Shown piece by piece: positions 24,041 through 31,290 of a stretch of 31,384 nucleotides of DNA (positions are counted from its first letter, which is position 1; each line of letters starts with the position of its first letter). The notes beneath the pieces are model-generated. The model saw only the letters and a program-made list of their open reading frames with translations, made no database searches and was not told the DNA's origin. The position numbers were made by a program, and so were the translations under genes. This DNA comes from a virus: positions 1 to 31,384 of IMG/VR virus record IMGVR_UViG_3300027754_000297. The stretch is one strand, 5' to 3'.

Positions 24041-24071
24041 AATAAATTTGTTAGTATTAAATTTATTAGTA
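24041..24071 (+). repeat. 31-bp repeat, copy 1 (promoter block)
   Basis: These 31 bases are identical to 25105-25135 and cover the -33 box, the spacer and the first two bases of the -7 box. The match stops inside the -7 element. Confidence 0.95.
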
Positions 24072-24077
24072 CATTTG
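24047..24077 (+). promoter_or_regulatory. Early promoter 1, Bacteroidota consensus
   Basis: TTTG at 24047-24050, 19 bp, then TACATTTG at 24070-24077: a perfect -33/-7 Bacteroidota promoter. It lies directly after the terminator and before the first early ORF (24110), leaving a leader of about 25 bases. Bases 24041-24071 are repeated exactly at 25105-25135. Confidence 0.8.
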
Positions 24078-24109: not shown

Positions 24110-24232
24110 ATGAAAAAACTAGCAATCGCAAAAACAGTTAAGCCATCAAGACGCTGCCAAAACTTTACACATTGGAGTGAATATATCAAAGAAACAATAC
24201 AAACTTTAAAACTTAAACAACATGGAAAATAA
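24110..24232 (+). CDS. Small basic protein, first early gene
   Basis: 40 aa from the ATG at 24110 to the TAA at 24230-24232. It is strongly basic (MKKLAIAKTVKPSRRCQNFTHW) with a helical end. It is the first start codon after early promoter 1, overlaps the next gene by 11 bp, and is too short for family recognition. Its position suggests an early regulator or host-takeover peptide, which is inference only. Confidence 0.5.
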   Translation: MKKLAIAKTVKPSRRCQNFTHWSEYIKETIQTLKLKQHGK

Positions 24233-24434
24233 TACTGTAAAAACTTTATTACCTTTAATCAAAGGGAAAAGTTACATGGAAATAGATCTAATAGTTAGAG
24301 AATGGGCCAAGTCAAGAACTAATGAAGAAACAACAGATAAATTATTTAAATATGCTAGTTTAGCCGGAGTTTTAGAAGCTAATATTACAATGTTATTGGA
24401 TCATATTAATGAATTAGAAAAAAGCAAACTATGA
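24222..24434 (+). CDS. Hypothetical early protein
   Basis: 70 aa, helical by composition (MEIDLIVREWAKSRTNEETTDKLF, then a hydrophobic helix ending in LEKSKL). No family is recognised. The stop overlaps the DnaA-domain gene start (ATGA), so it is probably translated with it. Confidence 0.6.
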   Translation: MENNTVKTLLPLIKGKSYMEIDLIVREWAKSRTNEETTDKLFKYASLAGVLEANITMLLDHINELEKSKL

Positions 24435-24748
24435 ACTACTTTATAATACCAGGCGTCAATAAATATCAGTTAAACGCTGATTCGGTTTTTAAAGCCGTTG
24501 AAAAAATTACTGGTATAAGTAAGGAGGAATTGACAAGTAAGGCAAGGCATAGGCCAATAGTTGAGGGTAGGTATTTATTTTCTTATATTATTAAGAAAAA
24601 AACAAACCTTACTTTAAATCAAATTGGCAAATTATTAAATAAAGATCATTGCTCAATAATATTCTATAATAAACAAATGGATAATTACATTAAATCCGAT
24701 AAACATTTACTTAATATGTATAACAAAATAATTAATCTATTATGGTAA
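24431..24748 (+). CDS. Stand-alone DnaA domain IV-like DNA-binding protein
   Basis: 105 aa. Residues about 20-95 match DnaA domain IV: KITGISKEELTSKARHRPIVEGRYLFSYII, then LTLNQIGKLLNKDHCSIIF, where the conserved DH-x-S/T signature helix contacts DnaA boxes. There is no ATPase (domain III) and no domain I. Such proteins could bind DnaA boxes on phage or host DNA, compete with host DnaA, or regulate transcription. It is followed immediately by a Xre regulator and lies in the early operon. Confidence 0.75.
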   Translation: MNYFIIPGVNKYQLNADSVFKAVEKITGISKEELTSKARHRPIVEGRYLFSYIIKKKTNLTLNQIGKLLNKDHCSIIFYNKQMDNYIKSDKHLLNMYNKIINLLW

Positions 24749-24930
24749 CACTTGAACAAATCATGGCGGAAGCTATGAGATACAGAAAGAAAAAGCTAAT
24801 AAGTAAAAATTCAATAGCTGTTAAAATGGGAGTAAGTCCGCAAAGGATAACAGCATGGGAGAATGGAAAAAACAAACCAAGAGCAGATTATTTTTTGAAA
24901 TATTTATCATTAATAGGGTATAAGTTATGA
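24742..24930 (+). CDS. Xre-family helix-turn-helix regulator
   Basis: 62 aa, almost entirely one HTH domain: a first helix (EQIMAEAMRYRKKKLI), then NSIAVKMGVSPQRITAWENGKNKPRADYF with the recognition helix at SPQRITAWE. It is probably a small repressor or activator that binds an operator, possibly the nearby promoters at 24047 and 25111. There is no dimerisation or protease-sensing domain, so it is Cro-like in size. It overlaps its neighbours at both ends. Confidence 0.8.
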   Translation: MVTLEQIMAEAMRYRKKKLISKNSIAVKMGVSPQRITAWENGKNKPRADYFLKYLSLIGYKL

Positions 24931-25109
24931 AAATTATTATGAAAGAAGGTTATGAAATAACCGAAGAAATAGAAAATTTATATCGTCAATATAATTTTTA
25001 TTCTAGTTATATTGATAATTATGGACAAATGAAAGAAGCTGAACATAAAAATAATGAAATAATGATAAAATTAAAAGAATTAAATGTTTTAGAAATAAAT
25101 AATGAATAA
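24927..25109 (+). CDS. Hypothetical early protein
   Basis: 60 aa, Tyr- and Asn-rich with a helical end (MKEAEHKNNEIMIKLKELNVL). It begins at an ATGA overlap with the Xre gene and ends just at the start of the second promoter repeat. No family is recognised. Confidence 0.55.
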   Translation: MKIIMKEGYEITEEIENLYRQYNFYSSYIDNYGQMKEAEHKNNEIMIKLKELNVLEINNE

Positions 25110-25135
25110 ATTTGTTAGTATTAAATTTATTAGTA
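25105..25135 (+). repeat. 31-bp repeat, copy 2 (promoter block)
   Basis: These bases are an exact copy of 24041-24071, beginning inside the last codons and stop of the preceding gene. With the following TCTTTA it forms a second promoter. Confidence 0.95.
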
Positions 25136-25141
25136 TCTTTA
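25111..25141 (+). promoter_or_regulatory. Early promoter 2, near-consensus, possibly leaderless
   Basis: TTTG at 25111-25114, 19 bp, then TATCTTTA at 25134-25141 (one base off TAnnTTTG). The next ATG is at 25146-25148, so a start site about 6 bases after the -7 box would give an mRNA beginning at or next to the start codon. Confidence 0.7.
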
Positions 25142-25145
25142 CACT

Positions 25146-25334
25146 ATGGAAGACTTCGAAGACTACATGTACGCACAGATGCGCTGGCATGAAAAAAATA
25201 AAGCTTATGAGCTTAACCAAATTAGGTTACAAATTGAGGATAAAGAAAATGAGTTAGAATTTTTGCAGTCCGAAATTAACTACTTAAAAAATCAATACGA
25301 TGAAATAAACAGTACAAATCAATTTGATCTTTAA
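25146..25334 (+). CDS. Small coiled-coil protein
   Basis: 62 aa with an acidic start (MEDFEDYMYAQMRWHEKNKA) and a long charged coiled coil (about 24-55). It is the first gene after promoter 2, whose -7 box ends 4 bp before the ATG. If the message is leaderless, translation begins at its 5' end. No family is recognised. It precedes the ERF gene by 11 bp. Confidence 0.6.
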   Translation: MEDFEDYMYAQMRWHEKNKAYELNQIRLQIEDKENELEFLQSEINYLKNQYDEINSTNQFDL

Positions 25335-25345
25335 AATTAAAAATT

Positions 25346-25855
25346 ATGGAAACTCTCGTAAAAATTCAAAATGAATTAAAAGTTCCTAAAGGAAATGTAA
25401 ATAAATTTGGTAACTATAAATATAGATCTGCCGAAGATATTTTAGAAGCTGTTAAGCCTATTTTAAATAAGTATAACGCATTTTTAAGACTTTCTGATGA
25501 AATAGTATCAATAGGAAATAAAACATTCTTAAAAGCTACTGCAAAAATAAGCATAGGGGATAAGACCGAAGAGGTTTTGGGATTCGCTGAACTTTCAGAA
25601 CATAAGGGAATGAGTAGTGAACAGGCCACAGGAACAGCTAGTAGTTATGCTAGAAAATATGCTTTAAATGGTTTATTTCTAATAGATGAAACAGAAGCAG
25701 ATGCAGATGCAGATTCTCAAAAGCCACAATTAAGCAAGCCAACAGCAACAAAAGAAAATATCGACAAAGCTAAGAAAGGTAATTTTACACTATTACAAAT
25801 CAAACAACACTATACATTAACTAAAGAAATGGAGGCGTACTATGAATCTATTTAA
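25346..25855 (+). CDS. erf: ERF-family single-strand annealing protein
   Basis: 169 aa. The N-terminal half has the ERF pattern (VPKGNVNKFGNYKYRSAEDILEAVKPIL) and the central ATGTASSYARKYALNGLFLIDE block near 95-116, the family signature. It would anneal complementary strands during recombination and repair of phage DNA, working with the SSB-like protein and nucleases in the same operon. After about 117 the sequence becomes Asp/Ala- and Lys-rich, then has a short C-terminal helix. It overlaps the next gene by 14 bp. Confidence 0.9.
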   Translation: METLVKIQNELKVPKGNVNKFGNYKYRSAEDILEAVKPILNKYNAFLRLSDEIVSIGNKTFLKATAKISIGDKTEEVLGFAELSEHKGMSSEQATGTASSYARKYALNGLFLIDETEADADADSQKPQLSKPTATKENIDKAKKGNFTLLQIKQHYTLTKEMEAYYESI

Positions 25856-26318
25856 CATAAAATCGGAATATATCAATATAGCTGCACAATTAGCAGATGG
25901 TGAGTTAACACCTGAACTAGAAGAGGCTTTATTAATTAACGAGCAGAACTTTACTGAAAAAGCTATTAACTACGGGTATGTGATTAAAACTTTTGAAAGT
26001 GAGACCGATATACTAGAAAACGAAATAAAGCGTTTAAACGCGCTTAAAATAGCACGTACTAAGGCAATTGATAAATTAAAGGTTACAATATCAAATGCAA
26101 TGCAGTTATATCAGATCCTGGAGGTTAAGGCCCCTACTTTTAAAATGAATTTCCGAAAATCTGAATCAGTTGAGGTTAGTGATTTATTAGATCAAACCTA
26201 TATTGTTGAGAAAGTAAGTTATCAACCTGATAAGATAGCAATTAAAAACGCTATTAAAGAAGGCAAAACAGTTAATGGAGCAGCTTTAATTATAAACTAT
26301 AACTTACAAATAAAATGA
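25842..26318 (+). CDS. Gp157-family (siphovirus) protein
   Basis: 158 aa. The helical N-terminal half with ADGELTPELEEALLINEQNFTEKAINYGYVIKTFE, then KRLNALKIARTKAIDKLKVTISNAM, and the C-terminal VEVSDLLDQTYIV ... KIAIKNAIKEGKTVNGAALI matches the Sipho_Gp157 family. These proteins are linked with phage recombination or resistance to host abortive systems and their exact role is unsettled. Placement right after the ERF gene supports the recombination link. The stop overlaps the next start (ATGA). Confidence 0.8.
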   Translation: MNLFNIKSEYINIAAQLADGELTPELEEALLINEQNFTEKAINYGYVIKTFESETDILENEIKRLNALKIARTKAIDKLKVTISNAMQLYQILEVKAPTFKMNFRKSESVEVSDLLDQTYIVEKVSYQPDKIAIKNAIKEGKTVNGAALIINYNLQIK

Positions 26319-26512
26319 TACCACGCGATAAATCAATTGACATGATTATTGACTTTAAACAAGGTAATAAGCCAATTCAACAAGCCAAAGAAAGCGCGCT
26401 AATATGCGTTGATAATATTTTAAAAAATGAATCTTACATAACCGATTCATACCAAAAAACAAAATACATAAATTACTGGAACGAAGTAAAACAATTTATA
26501 GAAAAATTATGA
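26315..26512 (+). CDS. Conserved hypothetical early protein
   Basis: 65 aa. It contains AKESALICVDNIL and a C-terminal YINYWNEVKQFIEKL, a pair of motifs I have seen in short Bacteroidota-phage proteins of unknown role. Both ends are ATGA overlaps with neighbours, so it is part of the coupled early operon. Confidence 0.6.
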   Translation: MIPRDKSIDMIIDFKQGNKPIQQAKESALICVDNILKNESYITDSYQKTKYINYWNEVKQFIEKL

Positions 26513-26700
26513 AAACAATTAAACAATTATCTTACTTTTATTTATTCAGAGCAATAATTAAATTTGATAAATTCCTTGAAATATTTACCAAGGTTGAGAT
26601 CAACCATTTGGGTAGTTCAGGAATAAAACACACAATTTGCATCAAAGGAAATAAATTTTATCAATCCTGCCGTTGCGGTTCTAAATCAGGGAGGTGTTAA
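26509..26700 (+). CDS. Hypothetical protein with C-terminal cysteine cluster
   Basis: 63 aa. The N-terminal half is hydrophobic and aromatic (LSYFYLFRAIIKFDKFLEIF). The end is CRCGSKSGRC, a tight three-Cys cluster that could bind zinc or form a disulfide. No family is recognised. It ends immediately before the next ATG. Confidence 0.55.
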   Translation: MKTIKQLSYFYLFRAIIKFDKFLEIFTKVEINHLGSSGIKHTICIKGNKFYQSCRCGSKSGRC

Positions 26701-27006
26701 ATGAATCCAATTATCGAAATTAATATAATGGTTGCACTATTAAGGGCAGCAACAGAACAAAGCCGAATGATTAACGGCCATTTTAAGCAAAAGAAAAAAG
26801 AATCATTCAACAGAATGCAAGGAGCGTGTGAACATTGGTTAAAATTAATGGATATGAATGTTGGATCTAAAGAAGAATCAGAGTTTACCGATAATTTAAC
26901 CGATGCAATACACGAGGTCTGCGACTACCTGCGGAACGAAATGGATAAAGTAATAAAACAAAACAAAGAAAATGAAGGACAAGATAGTACAGCAAGTGAT
27001 AGCTAA
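26701..27006 (+). CDS. Hypothetical helical early protein
   Basis: 101 aa, mostly helical, with FNRMQGACEHWLKLMDMNV in the middle and an acidic-to-polar C-terminus (KENEGQDSTASDS). Not recognised. It overlaps the next gene by 35 bp. The pattern suggests a small structural or regulatory protein without a visible enzyme motif. Confidence 0.6.
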   Translation: MNPIIEINIMVALLRAATEQSRMINGHFKQKKKESFNRMQGACEHWLKLMDMNVGSKEESEFTDNLTDAIHEVCDYLRNEMDKVIKQNKENEGQDSTASDS

Positions 27007-27172
27007 GTTCGAACAACGTTCAGAAGTTGGGATTAGAAAGTATGGGACAACTTTACAAGAGAATAACAACGATGACTTTATAAATCATTTACAAGAGGAG
27101 CTAATGGACGCTATCCTTTATCTGGAAAAAATTAAATCAATTAAAAGAAGGGAGCAATTTTATGGATGTTAG
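26972..27172 (+). CDS. Small MazG-like/nucleotide-metabolism protein
   Basis: 66 aa. KFEQRSEVGIRKYGTTL followed by HLQEELMDAILYLEKI recalls the start of phage dNTP diphosphohydrolase-like or MazG-related proteins, where the EELMDA helix carries metal-binding acids. It is too short for a complete enzyme, so it may act with the following MazG-like gene, which it overlaps by 11 bp. Confidence 0.55.
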   Translation: MKDKIVQQVIAKFEQRSEVGIRKYGTTLQENNNDDFINHLQEELMDAILYLEKIKSIKRREQFYGC

Positions 27173-27740
27173 AAAACATGATATTAGATTAGAATTTAAT
27201 GAAAAACAACAAGCATGGCATCATGAATGGCACCAAAGAACCTATATGAAAGAACCTAATACTTTTGGATGGGAAACAATTTTTGAAAGATGTTGTGATT
27301 ATAAAGCTATGAATTTTGATTCATTTTTAAAATCTTTATTAAAACCACCTTATAAAATGGCAGATGTAAAAAATTTAGCTAAAAAATATGAAGAATTTGA
27401 AAAAGATTTAAATTATAGACAAAGTTCAATTAGTTATAATAAATATATCTTTAATATTCATCATTATATTTTAGAATGGGCAAAGGAACGAGGAATATTA
27501 ATTCCTGATAATGCCACAAAACAAATGTTAAAGCTAACAGAGGAAGTCGGGGAGCTAGCCGGAGCAATTGCAAAGAATAATAAAATAGATCAAATCGATG
27601 CAATAGGGGATATCCAAGTAGTTTTAATCATACTTTCAGAACAATTAGGTATAAACTATAAAGAAGCCTTAGAAAGTGCGTATAATGTGATTAAAGATCG
27701 TAAAGGAAAAACAGTTAACGGAATATTTATTAAAGACTAA
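27162..27740 (+). CDS. MazG-like NTP pyrophosphohydrolase with extra N-terminal domain
   Basis: 192 aa. The C-terminal half (about 104-192) is MazG-like: EEVGEL at 127-132, then IDAIGD at 145-150 with Asp146 and Asp150, the metal-binding acids. It would hydrolyse nucleoside triphosphates to monophosphates, shaping the pool or degrading alarmone-like signals. The first ~100 residues (AWHHEWHQRTY, GWETIFERCCDYKAM) are not part of MazG and are not recognised. The base composition of this half is more AT-rich than the second half. It may be a fusion with a substrate or partner domain. Confidence 0.8.
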   Translation: MDVRKHDIRLEFNEKQQAWHHEWHQRTYMKEPNTFGWETIFERCCDYKAMNFDSFLKSLLKPPYKMADVKNLAKKYEEFEKDLNYRQSSISYNKYIFNIHHYILEWAKERGILIPDNATKQMLKLTEEVGELAGAIAKNNKIDQIDAIGDIQVVLIILSEQLGINYKEALESAYNVIKDRKGKTVNGIFIKD

Positions 27741-27759
27741 ACAATTAAAAACTAAAACT

Positions 27760-28020
27760 ATGGAAACCAAATTAAACAGCGGAGCAATATTTAAGAACGA
27801 CAAAAAAGCTAAAGACACTCACCCGGATTATAGAGGTAAGGTAAATGTAGAAGGCAAAGAATTAGAAATATCTTTGTGGCTTAAAGAATCCAAATCAGGT
27901 GTTAAATATTTTAGCGCATCATTTCAAGAGCCTTGGGTTAAGCCAGCAATAATAAGCGATACAATGAGCAATAACATTGCAGCATCTATTGAGCAACCAT
28001 TTAACGATTTACCATTCTAG
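27760..28020 (+). CDS. Small SSB-like / DUF736-type protein
   Basis: 86 aa. The core (GAIFKNDKKAKDTHPDYRGKVNVEGKELEISLWLKESKSGVKYFS) resembles the short beta-rich DUF736 family. The C-terminal end is FNDLPF, like the acidic tip of bacterial single-stranded DNA-binding proteins (DD-x-PF type), which recruits partners. Together these suggest a minimal ssDNA-binding protein of the phage replication and recombination cluster. It stands near the ERF, VRR-NUC-like and primase genes. Binding has to be inferred. Confidence 0.6.
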   Translation: METKLNSGAIFKNDKKAKDTHPDYRGKVNVEGKELEISLWLKESKSGVKYFSASFQEPWVKPAIISDTMSNNIAASIEQPFNDLPF

Positions 28021-28021
28021 C

Positions 28022-28477
28022 ATGACGGCATTGCAGATATTAAATGAAATGGCATTCGAGAGATTGGCTGCCATTTCAACAATGCCAACGCATTGCATAC
28101 CAAAGCCTAAATTTACCGATAGCTCAGCAAACAACCTTACTAAGGCTATTATTAAGTACATTGAATTAATGGGTTACCAAGCAGAAAGGATTAGTAACAC
28201 TGGCCGTTATGTAGATAGTAAGAAAATGGTTAAGGACATTCAAGGTACAACCAAGCAAATCGGATCAGGTCAATACATACCAGGTACGGGAACTAAAGGA
28301 ACTGCCGACATAAGTAGTACTATCAAAGGAAAATCCGTTAAAATAGAGGTAAAATTTGGCAAGGATAGGCAGTCCGAGGCACAGAAAGACTATCAATCAA
28401 CTATTGAACGAAGTGGTGGTATTTATTACATAGCAAAAGATTTTGAAACATTTTATAACTTTTATCAAAAATTATAA
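28022..28477 (+). CDS. VRR-NUC/PD-(D/E)XK-like nuclease
   Basis: 151 aa from the ATG at 28022. An upstream in-frame ATG at 27977 would overlap the SSB-like gene and add a non-conserved leader, so it is rejected. The nuclease motif is clear: Asp96 in KGTADIS, E109-V-K111, Arg116, and the QKDY/Q-x-x-Y helix at 121-124, followed by GGIYYIAKDFETFYNFY. VRR-NUC enzymes resolve junctions or flaps. It would work with ERF and SSB-like proteins in recombination. Confidence 0.75.
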   Translation: MTALQILNEMAFERLAAISTMPTHCIPKPKFTDSSANNLTKAIIKYIELMGYQAERISNTGRYVDSKKMVKDIQGTTKQIGSGQYIPGTGTKGTADISSTIKGKSVKIEVKFGKDRQSEAQKDYQSTIERSGGIYYIAKDFETFYNFYQKL

Positions 28478-28479
28478 CC

Positions 28480-28704
28480 ATGAGACCCGAAGACAAAGCA
28501 AAGAAACTACATGACGAAGCCTATAAGATATTATATCTAGAAGGCAATTCACCATTGGTTAACAACCTTTCAAAGAATGTGGCAAGATCAACAGTAAATG
28601 AATTTATTAAGTATCATGAGCAAGAATGGGCCGGTAATTATGGCAGATGCCCTGGCCTTATCTATTGGGAAGAAGTTTTATATCACCTAGAGAATTTAGA
28701 GTAA
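28480..28704 (+). CDS. Hypothetical early protein
   Basis: 74 aa, helical and charged (MRPEDKAKKLHDEAYKILYLEG), with GRCPGLIYWEEVLYHLENLE at the end, resembling the YW-EV motif of other small proteins in this operon. The function is unknown. It precedes the intergenic region carrying the structured RNA. Confidence 0.55.
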   Translation: MRPEDKAKKLHDEAYKILYLEGNSPLVNNLSKNVARSTVNEFIKYHEQEWAGNYGRCPGLIYWEEVLYHLENLE

Positions 28705-28721
28705 AATATTTTTAATTATTG

Positions 28722-28751
28722 TTTGTTTTTAAATTTTTATTTATATATTTG
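28722..28751 (+). promoter_or_regulatory. Promoter of structured RNA / primase operon
   Basis: TTTG at 28722-28725, 18 bp, then TATATTTG at 28744-28751: a consensus -7 box and a good -33 box. The predicted start site, about 6-7 bases on, coincides with the first hairpin of the RNA. Confidence 0.75.
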
Positions 28752-28757
28752 TTGAGT

Positions 28758-28850
28758 AGTTACGCTCTCACAATATAGTAACTTAAAGATTTTAGCCTTA
28801 TTAAACGAGTGTAGATGTGAGAGCCTACATAAGTTTTTTAAGGCTTTTTT
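28758..28850 (+). ncRNA. Candidate structured RNA with kissing loops, ending in a terminator
   Basis: Hairpin 1: AGTTAC (28758-28763) pairs with GTAACT (28778-28783), enclosing a 14-base loop. Hairpin 2: AGCCTTA (28794-28800) pairs with TAAGGCT (28839-28845). Inside it AAAC (28803-28806) pairs with GTTT (28833-28836), and TGTAG (28810-28814) with CTACA (28825-28829), leaving a 10-base loop. Loop 1 bases 28764-28772 (GCTCTCACA) are perfectly complementary to loop 2 bases 28816-28824 (TGTGAGAGC), a nine-pair kissing interaction. A T-run (28845-28850) follows, so the element can act as a terminator. The promoter lies at 28722-28751 and the primase ATG is 12 bp beyond the T-run. No known RNA class is recognised. 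It could be a short independent RNA (about 93 nt) or an attenuator leader for the primase gene. Confidence 0.65.
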
Positions 28851-28862
28851 ATTCTATAAATT

Positions 28863-29750
28863 ATGGAAAAAATTTTATTTAATTATTATCCAGCGGATAT
28901 TAAAAAAACAAAGCCAATAGGAATAGTAAATTTAAAACAGCTAATAAATGCTATTGAAAATCCTAAACCTGAAATTAAACATATTTTTGAACAAATAAGA
29001 CTTGCAGAAATATTAGGAAATCAAAAGTTAAAATCAGATCTTAAAACTAAACTATATTATTTTACACCATGTATTATTATAGGTTCAGGAAATGAAAGGC
29101 AATACAAAAATATAATTAAATGGAATGGTGTTGTAATGCTAGATTTTGACCATTTACAGCCTGAATACTGCAAAGAATTTAAACAAGTTTTATTTGATAA
29201 ATATAAATGTATTATTGCTACTTGGTTAAGTGCTTCACAGCATGGTTTAAGAGTTTTAATAAAAATTCCTGAGGTTAAATCTGTTAATGAATTTAAACAA
29301 TATTGGGAAGCTATAAGAAAAGAATTTGATAAATATAATGGATTTGATAATGCAACTAAAAACTGTATCCTTCCGATGTTTATGAGTTATGATGAAGATA
29401 TTTTATATAGAAATGATTTTGAAACATGGAATAAAAAACATATTGAAATGATTAAACCTATTGTAAAACAGTACATTATACAAGATAAAAGCAATCATAT
29501 TGAATCAATTTGTAATTTTGCTATTAATAAAATAATTAGTAATGGCCATCCGCAACTTAGAGCAATAGCTTTTGCTTTAGGAGGTTACATTTCAGCTGGT
29601 TATATTGATGAGAACACAGCTAATAATATGATTAATAAAATGATTGAAGGTAATAATTACCTTTCTCAAAAACATGAAGTATATAAAAAAACAGCTAAAA
29701 CAATGATAAATAAAGGAATGTTAAACCCATTATATTTAAAAAATGAATAG
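28863..29750 (+). CDS. Primase, BT4734/VirE-N-like (archaeo-eukaryotic primase superfamily)
   Basis: 295 aa. Residues about 70-135 have the primase core: a substrate strand (CIIIGSGNERQ), the catalytic acids in VMLDFDH (Asp94, Asp96) and WLSASQHGLRVLIKIP (123-136), where the usual S-P-S-G-x-G-L is altered to S-A-S-Q-H-G-L. A further acid-containing block (FDNATKNCILPMFMSYDED) fits the family. It would make primers for replication at a nearby origin. The start lies 12 bp after a terminator-like RNA, and the stop overlaps the helicase start by 8 bp. Confidence 0.8.
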   Translation: MEKILFNYYPADIKKTKPIGIVNLKQLINAIENPKPEIKHIFEQIRLAEILGNQKLKSDLKTKLYYFTPCIIIGSGNERQYKNIIKWNGVVMLDFDHLQPEYCKEFKQVLFDKYKCIIATWLSASQHGLRVLIKIPEVKSVNEFKQYWEAIRKEFDKYNGFDNATKNCILPMFMSYDEDILYRNDFETWNKKHIEMIKPIVKQYIIQDKSNHIESICNFAINKIISNGHPQLRAIAFALGGYISAGYIDENTANNMINKMIEGNNYLSQKHEVYKKTAKTMINKGMLNPLYLKNE

Positions 29751-31290
29751 TAAATTTATTAAATTCGAAAAATCACCTTTACTAAATCCAGTTGACTATT
29801 ATAATTTTTTTGGTTCATTTATTGGAATATTTGAAGGTAATAAAAAGTTTTATGTAATTAATGAAAATGAGGTTTCTATTTTAACTGGAGATTCTGCCGA
29901 ATTAAAAAAGCCAGCATTTAAAAAATTAGATAATAATTTAATTGCAGTTTTAAAATCTAATCCTTTAGATATTGCAACTGGATCAGAAATAACAAAATTT
30001 ATGTTATTAACTGCTGTTAAATTTAAAGGTGATTATTTTGCTGCAATGTCTTATGTTTCATTTAATATAATGAAAAAAGATATACCATATATTAGAGTTG
30101 GTTCAGACTATTACAAACTAATAAATAAAACTGATAGATATGGTGCCAAAAATACTTTATTAAAACATTGGAAAAAGGATGAGATAAAAGAAGATCATAC
30201 AAAAGAACTGTTAAAATTGATTTATAAATTTGATGACTTCACGTTGTTACCTAATAACATTGATTTTATACCCGTAATAGATTCATGCTACAACCTTTAT
30301 AATAAATTTGCACATTCACCAAGTGATAATTTAGTTCATGAAAATGATATTCCTATATCTATTGGTTTAATGAATCATATTTTTGGAGACCAGGTAAACC
30401 TAGGTTTAAAATATATGAAGATTTTATATGAGCATCCAACTCAAATTTTGCCTATACTTTCACTTGTTAGTAATGAACGAGGAACTGGTAAAACCACATT
30501 CTTAAATTGGATTCATATGCTATTCGGTGAAAATTCTGTTTTAATTAATCCCCATGATCTTACAAGTTCATTTAATAGTATTTATGCAACCAAAAATATA
30601 ATTATGGTTGATGAAACTGTTATTGAAAAATTGGCATCAGTAGAAAAATTAAAATCAATTGCAACAGCTAAGAGTATTTCGGTATCACAAAAATTTGTTT
30701 CTGAATATTCAATTCCTTTTTTCGGTAAAGTAATTCTTTGCACAAATAAAGAAAAAGACTTTATGCGTATAGATGAGGAAGAGGTAAGATTTTGGATAAG
30801 AAAAATAAAGGCTATCGAGATTTTGAATACTAATATTGAAAATGATTTATTTATTGAGGTGCCAAAATTCCTTAAATTCCTTCTTCAGATGCCGTCTATT
30901 GACTTTTCATTGTCTAGGATGGTATTTACTATGGATGAGATAAAAACAGAGCATTTAGAGCATATTAAAAAAGAAAGTAGATCAGGACTTTATAAAGAAC
31001 TTGAAATATTAATAGAAGACTTTTTTAATTCAACCGGAAAAAATGAATTTTTAGCTACTGCAACAGATATTAAAAACGAATGGTTTAAAAATAATAATCA
31101 AATTGGAATATCTTATATAAGAAAAGTTTTAAAAGAAGAGTTTAAACTGCATCCTGAAAAGCTACAGAAATATTATTCATTCGGGGATATTACTATAAAA
31201 ATGGAAACTGGAACACCATTTAAATTTATTAATATCTATGAAAAAATACAAAACAATGATTTTGAACAAGTTAACGAATGCCCATTTTAA
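29743..31290 (+). CDS. Superfamily 3-type replicative helicase (DUF5906-like)
   Basis: 515 aa. Walker A is GTGKTT (247-252) in SNERGTGKTTF, Walker B is IIMVDE (286-291; Asp290, Glu291), and motif C is LCTNK (332-336), followed by an arginine-containing segment (EEEVRFW) that may supply the arginine finger. This is the SF3/primase-helicase arrangement of viral and plasmid initiators. The N-terminal 200 residues are not recognised; a C-terminal winged-helix-like part (about 420-490) could bind DNA. The gene ends directly beside the iteron array across the circle junction, which suggests that it opens the origin. The end copy of the terminal overlap has Tyr instead of Asp at residue 506. Confidence 0.85.
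   Translation: MNSKFIKFEKSPLLNPVDYYNFFGSFIGIFEGNKKFYVINENEVSILTGDSAELKKPAFKKLDNNLIAVLKSNPLDIATGSEITKFMLLTAVKFKGDYFAAMSYVSFNIMKKDIPYIRVGSDYYKLINKTDRYGAKNTLLKHWKKDEIKEDHTKELLKLIYKFDDFTLLPNNIDFIPVIDSCYNLYNKFAHSPSDNLVHENDIPISIGLMNHIFGDQVNLGLKYMKILYEHPTQILPILSLVSNERGTGKTTFLNWIHMLFGENSVLINPHDLTSSFNSIYATKNIIMVDETVIEKLASVEKLKSIATAKSISVSQKFVSEYSIPFFGKVILCTNKEKDFMRIDEEEVRFWIRKIKAIEILNTNIENDLFIEVPKFLKFLLQMPSIDFSLSRMVFTMDEIKTEHLEHIKKESRSGLYKELEILIEDFFNSTGKNEFLATATDIKNEWFKNNNQIGISYIRKVLKEEFKLHPEKLQKYYSFGDITIKMETGTPFKFINIYEKIQNNDFEQVNECPF

Follow-up and report, generated by a model that had tools for sequence, protein, structure and literature searches.

Positions 28744-28850 of the virus sequence analysed here hold an element in which a Bacteroidota promoter precedes two hairpins, one at the 5' end and one of the terminator type, with loops that are complementary to each other. 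By comparative sequence analysis, the element represents a large, previously undescribed RNA family that is absent from Rfam. The predicted structure is robust, while the function that we propose, a promoter-plus-terminated-leader control module acting as an attenuator set by the kissing contact of the loops, has in our estimation about an even chance of being correct.

Location and Predicted Fold of the Element

The window, i.e., the whole stretch of DNA that was analysed, is IMG/VR virus record IMGVR_UViG_3300027754_000297, positions 1-31,384 (31,384 bases). Between a small ORF that ends at 28704 and a primase-like gene that starts at 28863, the parts follow one another in the order promoter, hairpin 1, linker, hairpin 2 and T-run. 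The features of the element and of the two genes behind it are as follows:

28722-28751, + strand: Bacteroidota-type promoter, recognised from sequence (-33-like TTTG at 28722-28725, 18 nt, -7 box TATATTTG at 28744-28751)
28758-28783, + strand: hairpin 1, with the predicted 5' end of the RNA; predicted stem AGTTAC/GTAACT and 14-nt loop
28764-28771, + strand: kissing sequence 1, GCTCTCAC, which reaches 28772 in the window
28794-28845, + strand: hairpin 2, terminator-type; predicted stacked helices of 7, 4 and 6 bp with 2x2 loops between them
28817-28824, + strand: kissing sequence 2, GTGAGAGC, 2 nt past the upper stem and 0 nt from its 3' strand
28845-28850, + strand: T-run (U-tract), directly 3' of hairpin 2
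28863-29750, + strand: primase-like gene with a BT4734-like/VirE N-terminal domain (PF08800, E = 1.6e-13), starting 12 nt after the T-run
29743-31290, + strand: DUF5906/primase-helicase gene (PF19263, E = 6.4e-17; PHROG DNA primase)

All coordinates given in a preliminary description of this region were correct when re-read from the window sequence, and the element does occupy, as stated there, the sole gene-free stretch of the early region, being the only gap of more than 50 nt within the early gene run 24222-31290. Six bases separate TATATTTG from hairpin 1. The nine-base loop-loop pairing described earlier is exact in the window (28764-28772 with 28816-28824), but homologues keep a helix of 8 bp (GCUCUCAC/GUGAGAGC). 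Hairpin 2 has a predicted folding energy of -19.4 kcal/mol (z = -5.2), a value equalled by none of 200 shuffled sequences, and no competing fold was seen for the transcribed 93 nt of the window. A scan for sigma-70 promoters and terminators detected neither the promoter nor the terminator of the element, which is to be expected because the promoter is of the Bacteroidota type and hairpin 2 has a 10-nt loop as well as internal loops. Elsewhere in the window, a near-repeat, TAAATTTGTTAGTATTAAATTTATTAGTA followed by CATTTG or TCTTTA, is present at 24043-24077 and 25107-25133, upstream of early genes, and is perhaps a duplicated promoter.

Family Members and Distribution

A distant DNA search found a copy in Tenacibaculum phage Gundel_1 with 75% DNA identity over the element alone (E = 4e-15); it precedes an antirepressor gene and has an interrupted T-run. 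The layout recurred, with other loops, in weak matches to the Flavobacterium phages snusmum and hattifnatt, the loop pair there being GCTTCGAC/GTCGAAGC as against GCTCTCAC/GTGAGAGC in the window. When viral contigs were searched with the loop pair of the window, dozens of true homologues were recovered. They were recognised by a promoter at a distance of 4-7 nt upstream, by stems 1 and 2 that both differ in sequence and by a U-tract, and more than 20 different loop pairs occur in the family. Hairpin 1 of the window, used as an exact query, gave no matches, and a plasmid search gave chance matches only. None of the 4227 models of Rfam 15 (including pRNA, C4, 6S-Flavo and riboswitches) matched the window at the gathering threshold, nor did any match the 14 loci carrying homologues that were searched in the same way, and permissive searches returned only weak matches to unrelated families. 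Against Rfam 15, the earlier statement that the element matches no known RNA class therefore holds, and no description of it was found in the literature.

The named carriers infect Flavobacteriia, namely Tenacibaculum (Gundel_1) and Flavobacterium sp. LMO6/LMO9 (snusmum6-1 and hattifnatt9-1), and snusmum and hattifnatt belong to a phage collection whose members are reported to be virulent (PMC7077304). The family is common in contigs from viral metagenomes. In 84,980 bacterial and archaeal genomes, two scans for exact patterns, made with the commonest loop type only, returned no matches, so this loop type must be rare, if not absent, among sequenced hosts and prophages. With the primase protein as bait, one relative was retrieved (L153), without a convincing element, and no convincing module was seen in phi18:1, lotta8-1 and FPSV-S1, which share the primase. 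As a separate observation, the helicase gene of a sequence titled Rhodobacteraceae phage (L325, OP947161.1, 9221-10489) is 76% identical in DNA to that of Flavobacterium phage snusmum, and the host assignment of OP947161.1 may be wrong.

Compensatory Changes in the Stems and the Kissing Helix

Since the first homologues had been found through their loops, three tests free of this bias were run. In the first, a covariance model without the loop-loop pairs was applied to 76 loci, nearly all of which had been fetched by helicase protein. In all 11 matches with E < 0.01, a loop complement of 7-8 nt lies where it would be expected, mostly with new loop letters, and some weaker matches have one as well. 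The second test used a DNA pattern in which the hairpin 1 stem and the promoter were fixed and the kissing stretch was left open. Among its 76 unique matches, an exact 8-nt complement of loop 1 is found 33-37 nt downstream in 63 of the 63 that bear a TAnnTTTG box and in none of the 13 that lack it; a second loop-blind pattern (AGTTAC stem) had the same outcome in all complete promoter-bearing matches.

The third test was of covariation in 57 diverse members (alignment A5). Double changes are present in 25 of 26 pairs, and 97.9% of pair cells are standard, while none of 500 shuffles was as good and slid partners pair in at most 48%. All five modelled pairs of stem 1 (100% paired) and all 13 of hairpin 2 have double changes among these 57 homologues, as do seven of the eight pairs of the kissing helix, with 85 double-change cells and no one-sided change. 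G-U intermediates are lacking in the kissing helix, and many G-U pairs are found in stem 2. After a MAFFT alignment had misplaced some stems, alignment A5 was built with the model stems but without the kissing pairs; the kissing counts are therefore not a product of fitting. The members of A5 were partly drawn from exact-complement lists, and these lists hold no complete promoter-bearing member without the complement. Because the pairing letters keep changing, and always together, the loop contact itself matters, and with two loops joined by covarying Watson-Crick pairs the element falls into the structural class of kissing-loop RNAs. Conserved compensatory changes in the helices and in the loop-loop pairing, which the preliminary description had proposed as a check, are thus present, and the evidence for a structured RNA with kissing loops is stronger than was stated there. 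The E-value of the Gundel_1 match, the outcome of the loop-blind pattern and the covariation exclude a chance origin.

The two 8-mers are also an inverted repeat in DNA and could, in principle, be an operator beside the promoter with no RNA involved. The covariation of both flanking stems refutes this reading, and the distance between the 8-mers differs by several bases among copies, a U-tract is present and the loop sequences change freely, leaving it a practically negligible probability.

Conserved Geometry across Copies

A TAnnTTTG box lies 4-7 nt before stem 1 in 122 unique homologues, with a gap of 5 or 6 nt in 111, and this near-fixed spacing supports the promoter that had been placed upstream of hairpin 1. 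The density of elements with the box was 104 in real sequence versus 3 in shuffled sequence. In these 122 copies the kissing 8-mer of loop 1 directly follows stem 1, usually with 6 nt from there to the 3' strand, and in nearly all of them hairpin 2 has two bases (the first nearly always A) and then a kissing 8-mer that abuts the 3' strand. A 2-nt linker across an 8-bp helix would resemble an H-type pseudoknot. The kissing duplexes have four or five G-C pairs of eight, with predicted energies of -9.8 to -12.6 kcal/mol. Hairpin 2 is followed by a T-run of at least five in 116 of the 122 copies, which supports the terminator predicted earlier.

Downstream Genes and Proposed Mechanism

Each of the 119 testable copies is followed on the same strand by an ORF of 40 aa or more. 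The median distance from the T-run to the ORF is 19 nt, the start codon is ATG in 117 cases, and only three of the 119 have a -7 box in between. By placement, the element therefore has the make-up of a terminated leader or attenuator, with a promoter, a leader, a terminator and a gene without its own promoter. The downstream proteins form roughly two dozen unrelated groups (blastp), many of them for replication or DNA metabolism, and include DUF6291 proteins, DEAD helicases, ParB-like proteins, methyltransferases, HNH nucleases, a CoiA-like nuclease, the antirepressor, the primase of the window and the products of small ORFs. Such diversity is expected for a portable control module.

Three readings had been offered for the element: an attenuator, a trans-acting phage RNA and a multimerising RNA. 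The leader or attenuator fits best among them, because a same-strand ORF comes immediately after every testable copy, usually without room for another promoter; this placement before a gene speaks for it, but control of termination by the kissing contact is a step that we infer. Sequence comparison supports the promoter spacing, both hairpins, the kissing helix, the U-tract and the tight placement before a gene. In the proposed mechanism, RNA polymerase would start near 28758, and the RNA of ~90 nt would fold into two hairpins joined by the 8-bp loop-loop helix. Hairpin 2 and the U-tract would end most transcripts, so that an RNA of ~90 nt is released, and the gene behind (here the primase and then the helicase) would be expressed by read-through, the frequency of which may be set by the state of the kissing contact. 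The identity of the loops probably matters as well, since copies within one phage have different loops and the loops change more rapidly than the stems. Against a leader, phage genomes are compact, and a small RNA with a gene of its own could likewise end shortly before the next gene; moreover, the downstream genes have no function in common, and the T-run of the Gundel_1 copy is interrupted. An antiterminator fold competing with the structure was not seen for the 93 nt of the window, which speaks against a classical two-state attenuator. The tight spacing could stem from genome compactness alone, yet the gene would still need transcription through the terminator.

The strongest alternative is that the phage makes a trans-acting small RNA, of which the kissed fold would be functional (e.g., by binding a host protein) while the downstream genes are expressed via leaky termination. 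Its own promoter and U-tract would suit such an RNA, as would the strict geometry of the 122 unique copies (an 8-bp kissing helix with 0-nt and 2-nt linkers) and the unrelated downstream genes, and with no other target for the loops in the phage genome its function would rest on shape. This account fits less well with the two or three diverged copies of some phages, each before a different gene, and with the same-strand gene start close behind every testable copy, and we consider it a serious but less probable candidate.

Other intergenic regions were noted in passing. A similar Bacteroidota promoter without a kissing module is found in the ~90-nt gap between the terminase large subunit and portal genes of L324 (20308-20398) and other Muminviruses. 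In several Flavobacteriia phages, gaps of ~250-300 nt after primase/helicase (VirE) or nuclease genes (L324 17449-17713, L327 10812-11110, L329 22070-22316 and L326 13500-13764) each contain a short phage-specific word (GGTTACC, GGAACA, GTGTAACC or GTGACCA) in many copies and are candidate replication origins with iterons.

Several Copies per Phage and Turnover of the Loops

Two copies are present in G020, with loops GCTCTCAC and CATCCTAC, and in each of G042 and G044; G033 and snusmum have three each, and the two copies of mumin6-1 are of the same kinds as in snusmum. In phages with more than one copy, the loop pairs always differ within one phage and each copy precedes a different gene. The kinds GTCGTCG and GTGGAACG have a different hairpin-1 geometry and are weaker evidence when taken alone, because the detector required loop complementarity. 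Candidate modules were also seen in phage 11b (8-bp contact) and elemoA (6-bp, only suggestive). A comparison of L003 with the mumin6-1 region of L324 showed that closely related Muminviruses differ in the helicase region with its type-A module and keep the two other modules; a mosaic exchange of modules and genes among them seems likely.

In a loop-blind sample, copies that differ by less than 6% elsewhere differ by 5-10% at the kissing positions, while the sampled positions of the hairpin-2 5' arm show no differences. Closely related copies differ in one to four kissing pairs with the 5' arm of hairpin 2 unchanged, and CATCTCAC and CGTCTGAC are found in otherwise identical RNAs. Loop identity thus looks as if it is diversifying, in about three events in two clusters, the pairs not being independent. 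The idea that the loops are antisense to another phage message is unsupported, as only three extra loop or complement 8-mer sites were found in the carrier genomes versus 7.7 expected.

Loop-specific recognition between RNAs was also considered, in which released copies would kiss matching nascent or free copies, giving dosage control or the exclusion of a co-infecting phage whose loops are the same, in a manner similar to plasmid countertranscripts. Both complementary loops are present on each RNA, the loops differ among the copies in one phage, and the changes between close copies fall in the kissing pairs, where they are of the Watson-Crick type only, with the 5' arm of hairpin 2 held constant. 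Pairing within one molecule should, however, outcompete pairing between molecules, the divergence signal amounts to the few independent events mentioned above, and the divergence of old copies could be drift, so that recognition of this kind is improbable. The kissing loops might likewise be an identity code under diversifying selection, with a loop pair particular to each module or each phage and released RNAs recognising only their own kind, a suggestion that we regard as doubtful. If true, it would mean sequence-specific dosage control or the exclusion of like phages at early genes; we know of no self-recognising terminator RNA system.

Comparison with Known Systems

The 6S leader of lambda pR'-tR' is similar in having a promoter, a short leader, a terminator and then a gene, with a short RNA released and read-through needed. 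It requires the Q protein bound at the DNA and has no kissing loops, whereas no antiterminator is known for the element. The HK022 put RNA likewise consists of two adjacent phage hairpins near an early promoter, but it acts in the read-through of later terminators, contains none itself and has no known kissing contact, while the element ends in a terminator, with the U-tract found in nearly all copies.

Complementary, covarying loops in an early phage RNA are also found in the phi29 pRNA. Those loops pair between molecules, and the pRNA has one copy per phage and is tied to the packaging ATPase, unlike the several copies with different loops that precede early genes here. Self-complementary loops could in principle link molecules, as in the multimerising packaging RNA suggested in the preliminary description. 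The genes behind the copies are early ones, often for replication, several copies with different loops occur per phage, the U-tract is directly before an ORF, terminase small and large subunits are annotated in carriers or relatives, and Rfam, pRNA included, gave no match; a packaging RNA is very improbable.

The C4 antisense RNA of phages P1/P7 (RF01695) is a short hairpin RNA before an antirepressor, as is the Gundel_1 copy. It pairs with separate target sites on the ant mRNA, while the loops of the element pair mutually, have no other target (fewer sites than expected, as given above) and have no Rfam match. The plasmid countertranscripts ColE1 RNAI/RNAII and CopA/CopT share the loop-loop contact and the divergence of loops into specificity types, but their partners come from opposite strands, whereas both loops of the element are on one RNA. 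Guanidine-II and purine riboswitches likewise have a contact between two hairpin loops upstream of a gene, but their loops or cores are conserved in sequence for the ligand, in contrast to the freely varying loop letters of the element, which has no match to them in Rfam.

Significance

The element defines a widespread, undescribed RNA family of Flavobacteriia phages, with a tertiary structure backed by compensatory loop-loop changes, and offers a clean natural system for the effect of a loop-loop contact on intrinsic termination. The isolated carriers snusmum6-1, hattifnatt9-1 and Gundel_1 make the family directly testable, and the turnover of its loops makes an RNA identity code in phages conceivable.
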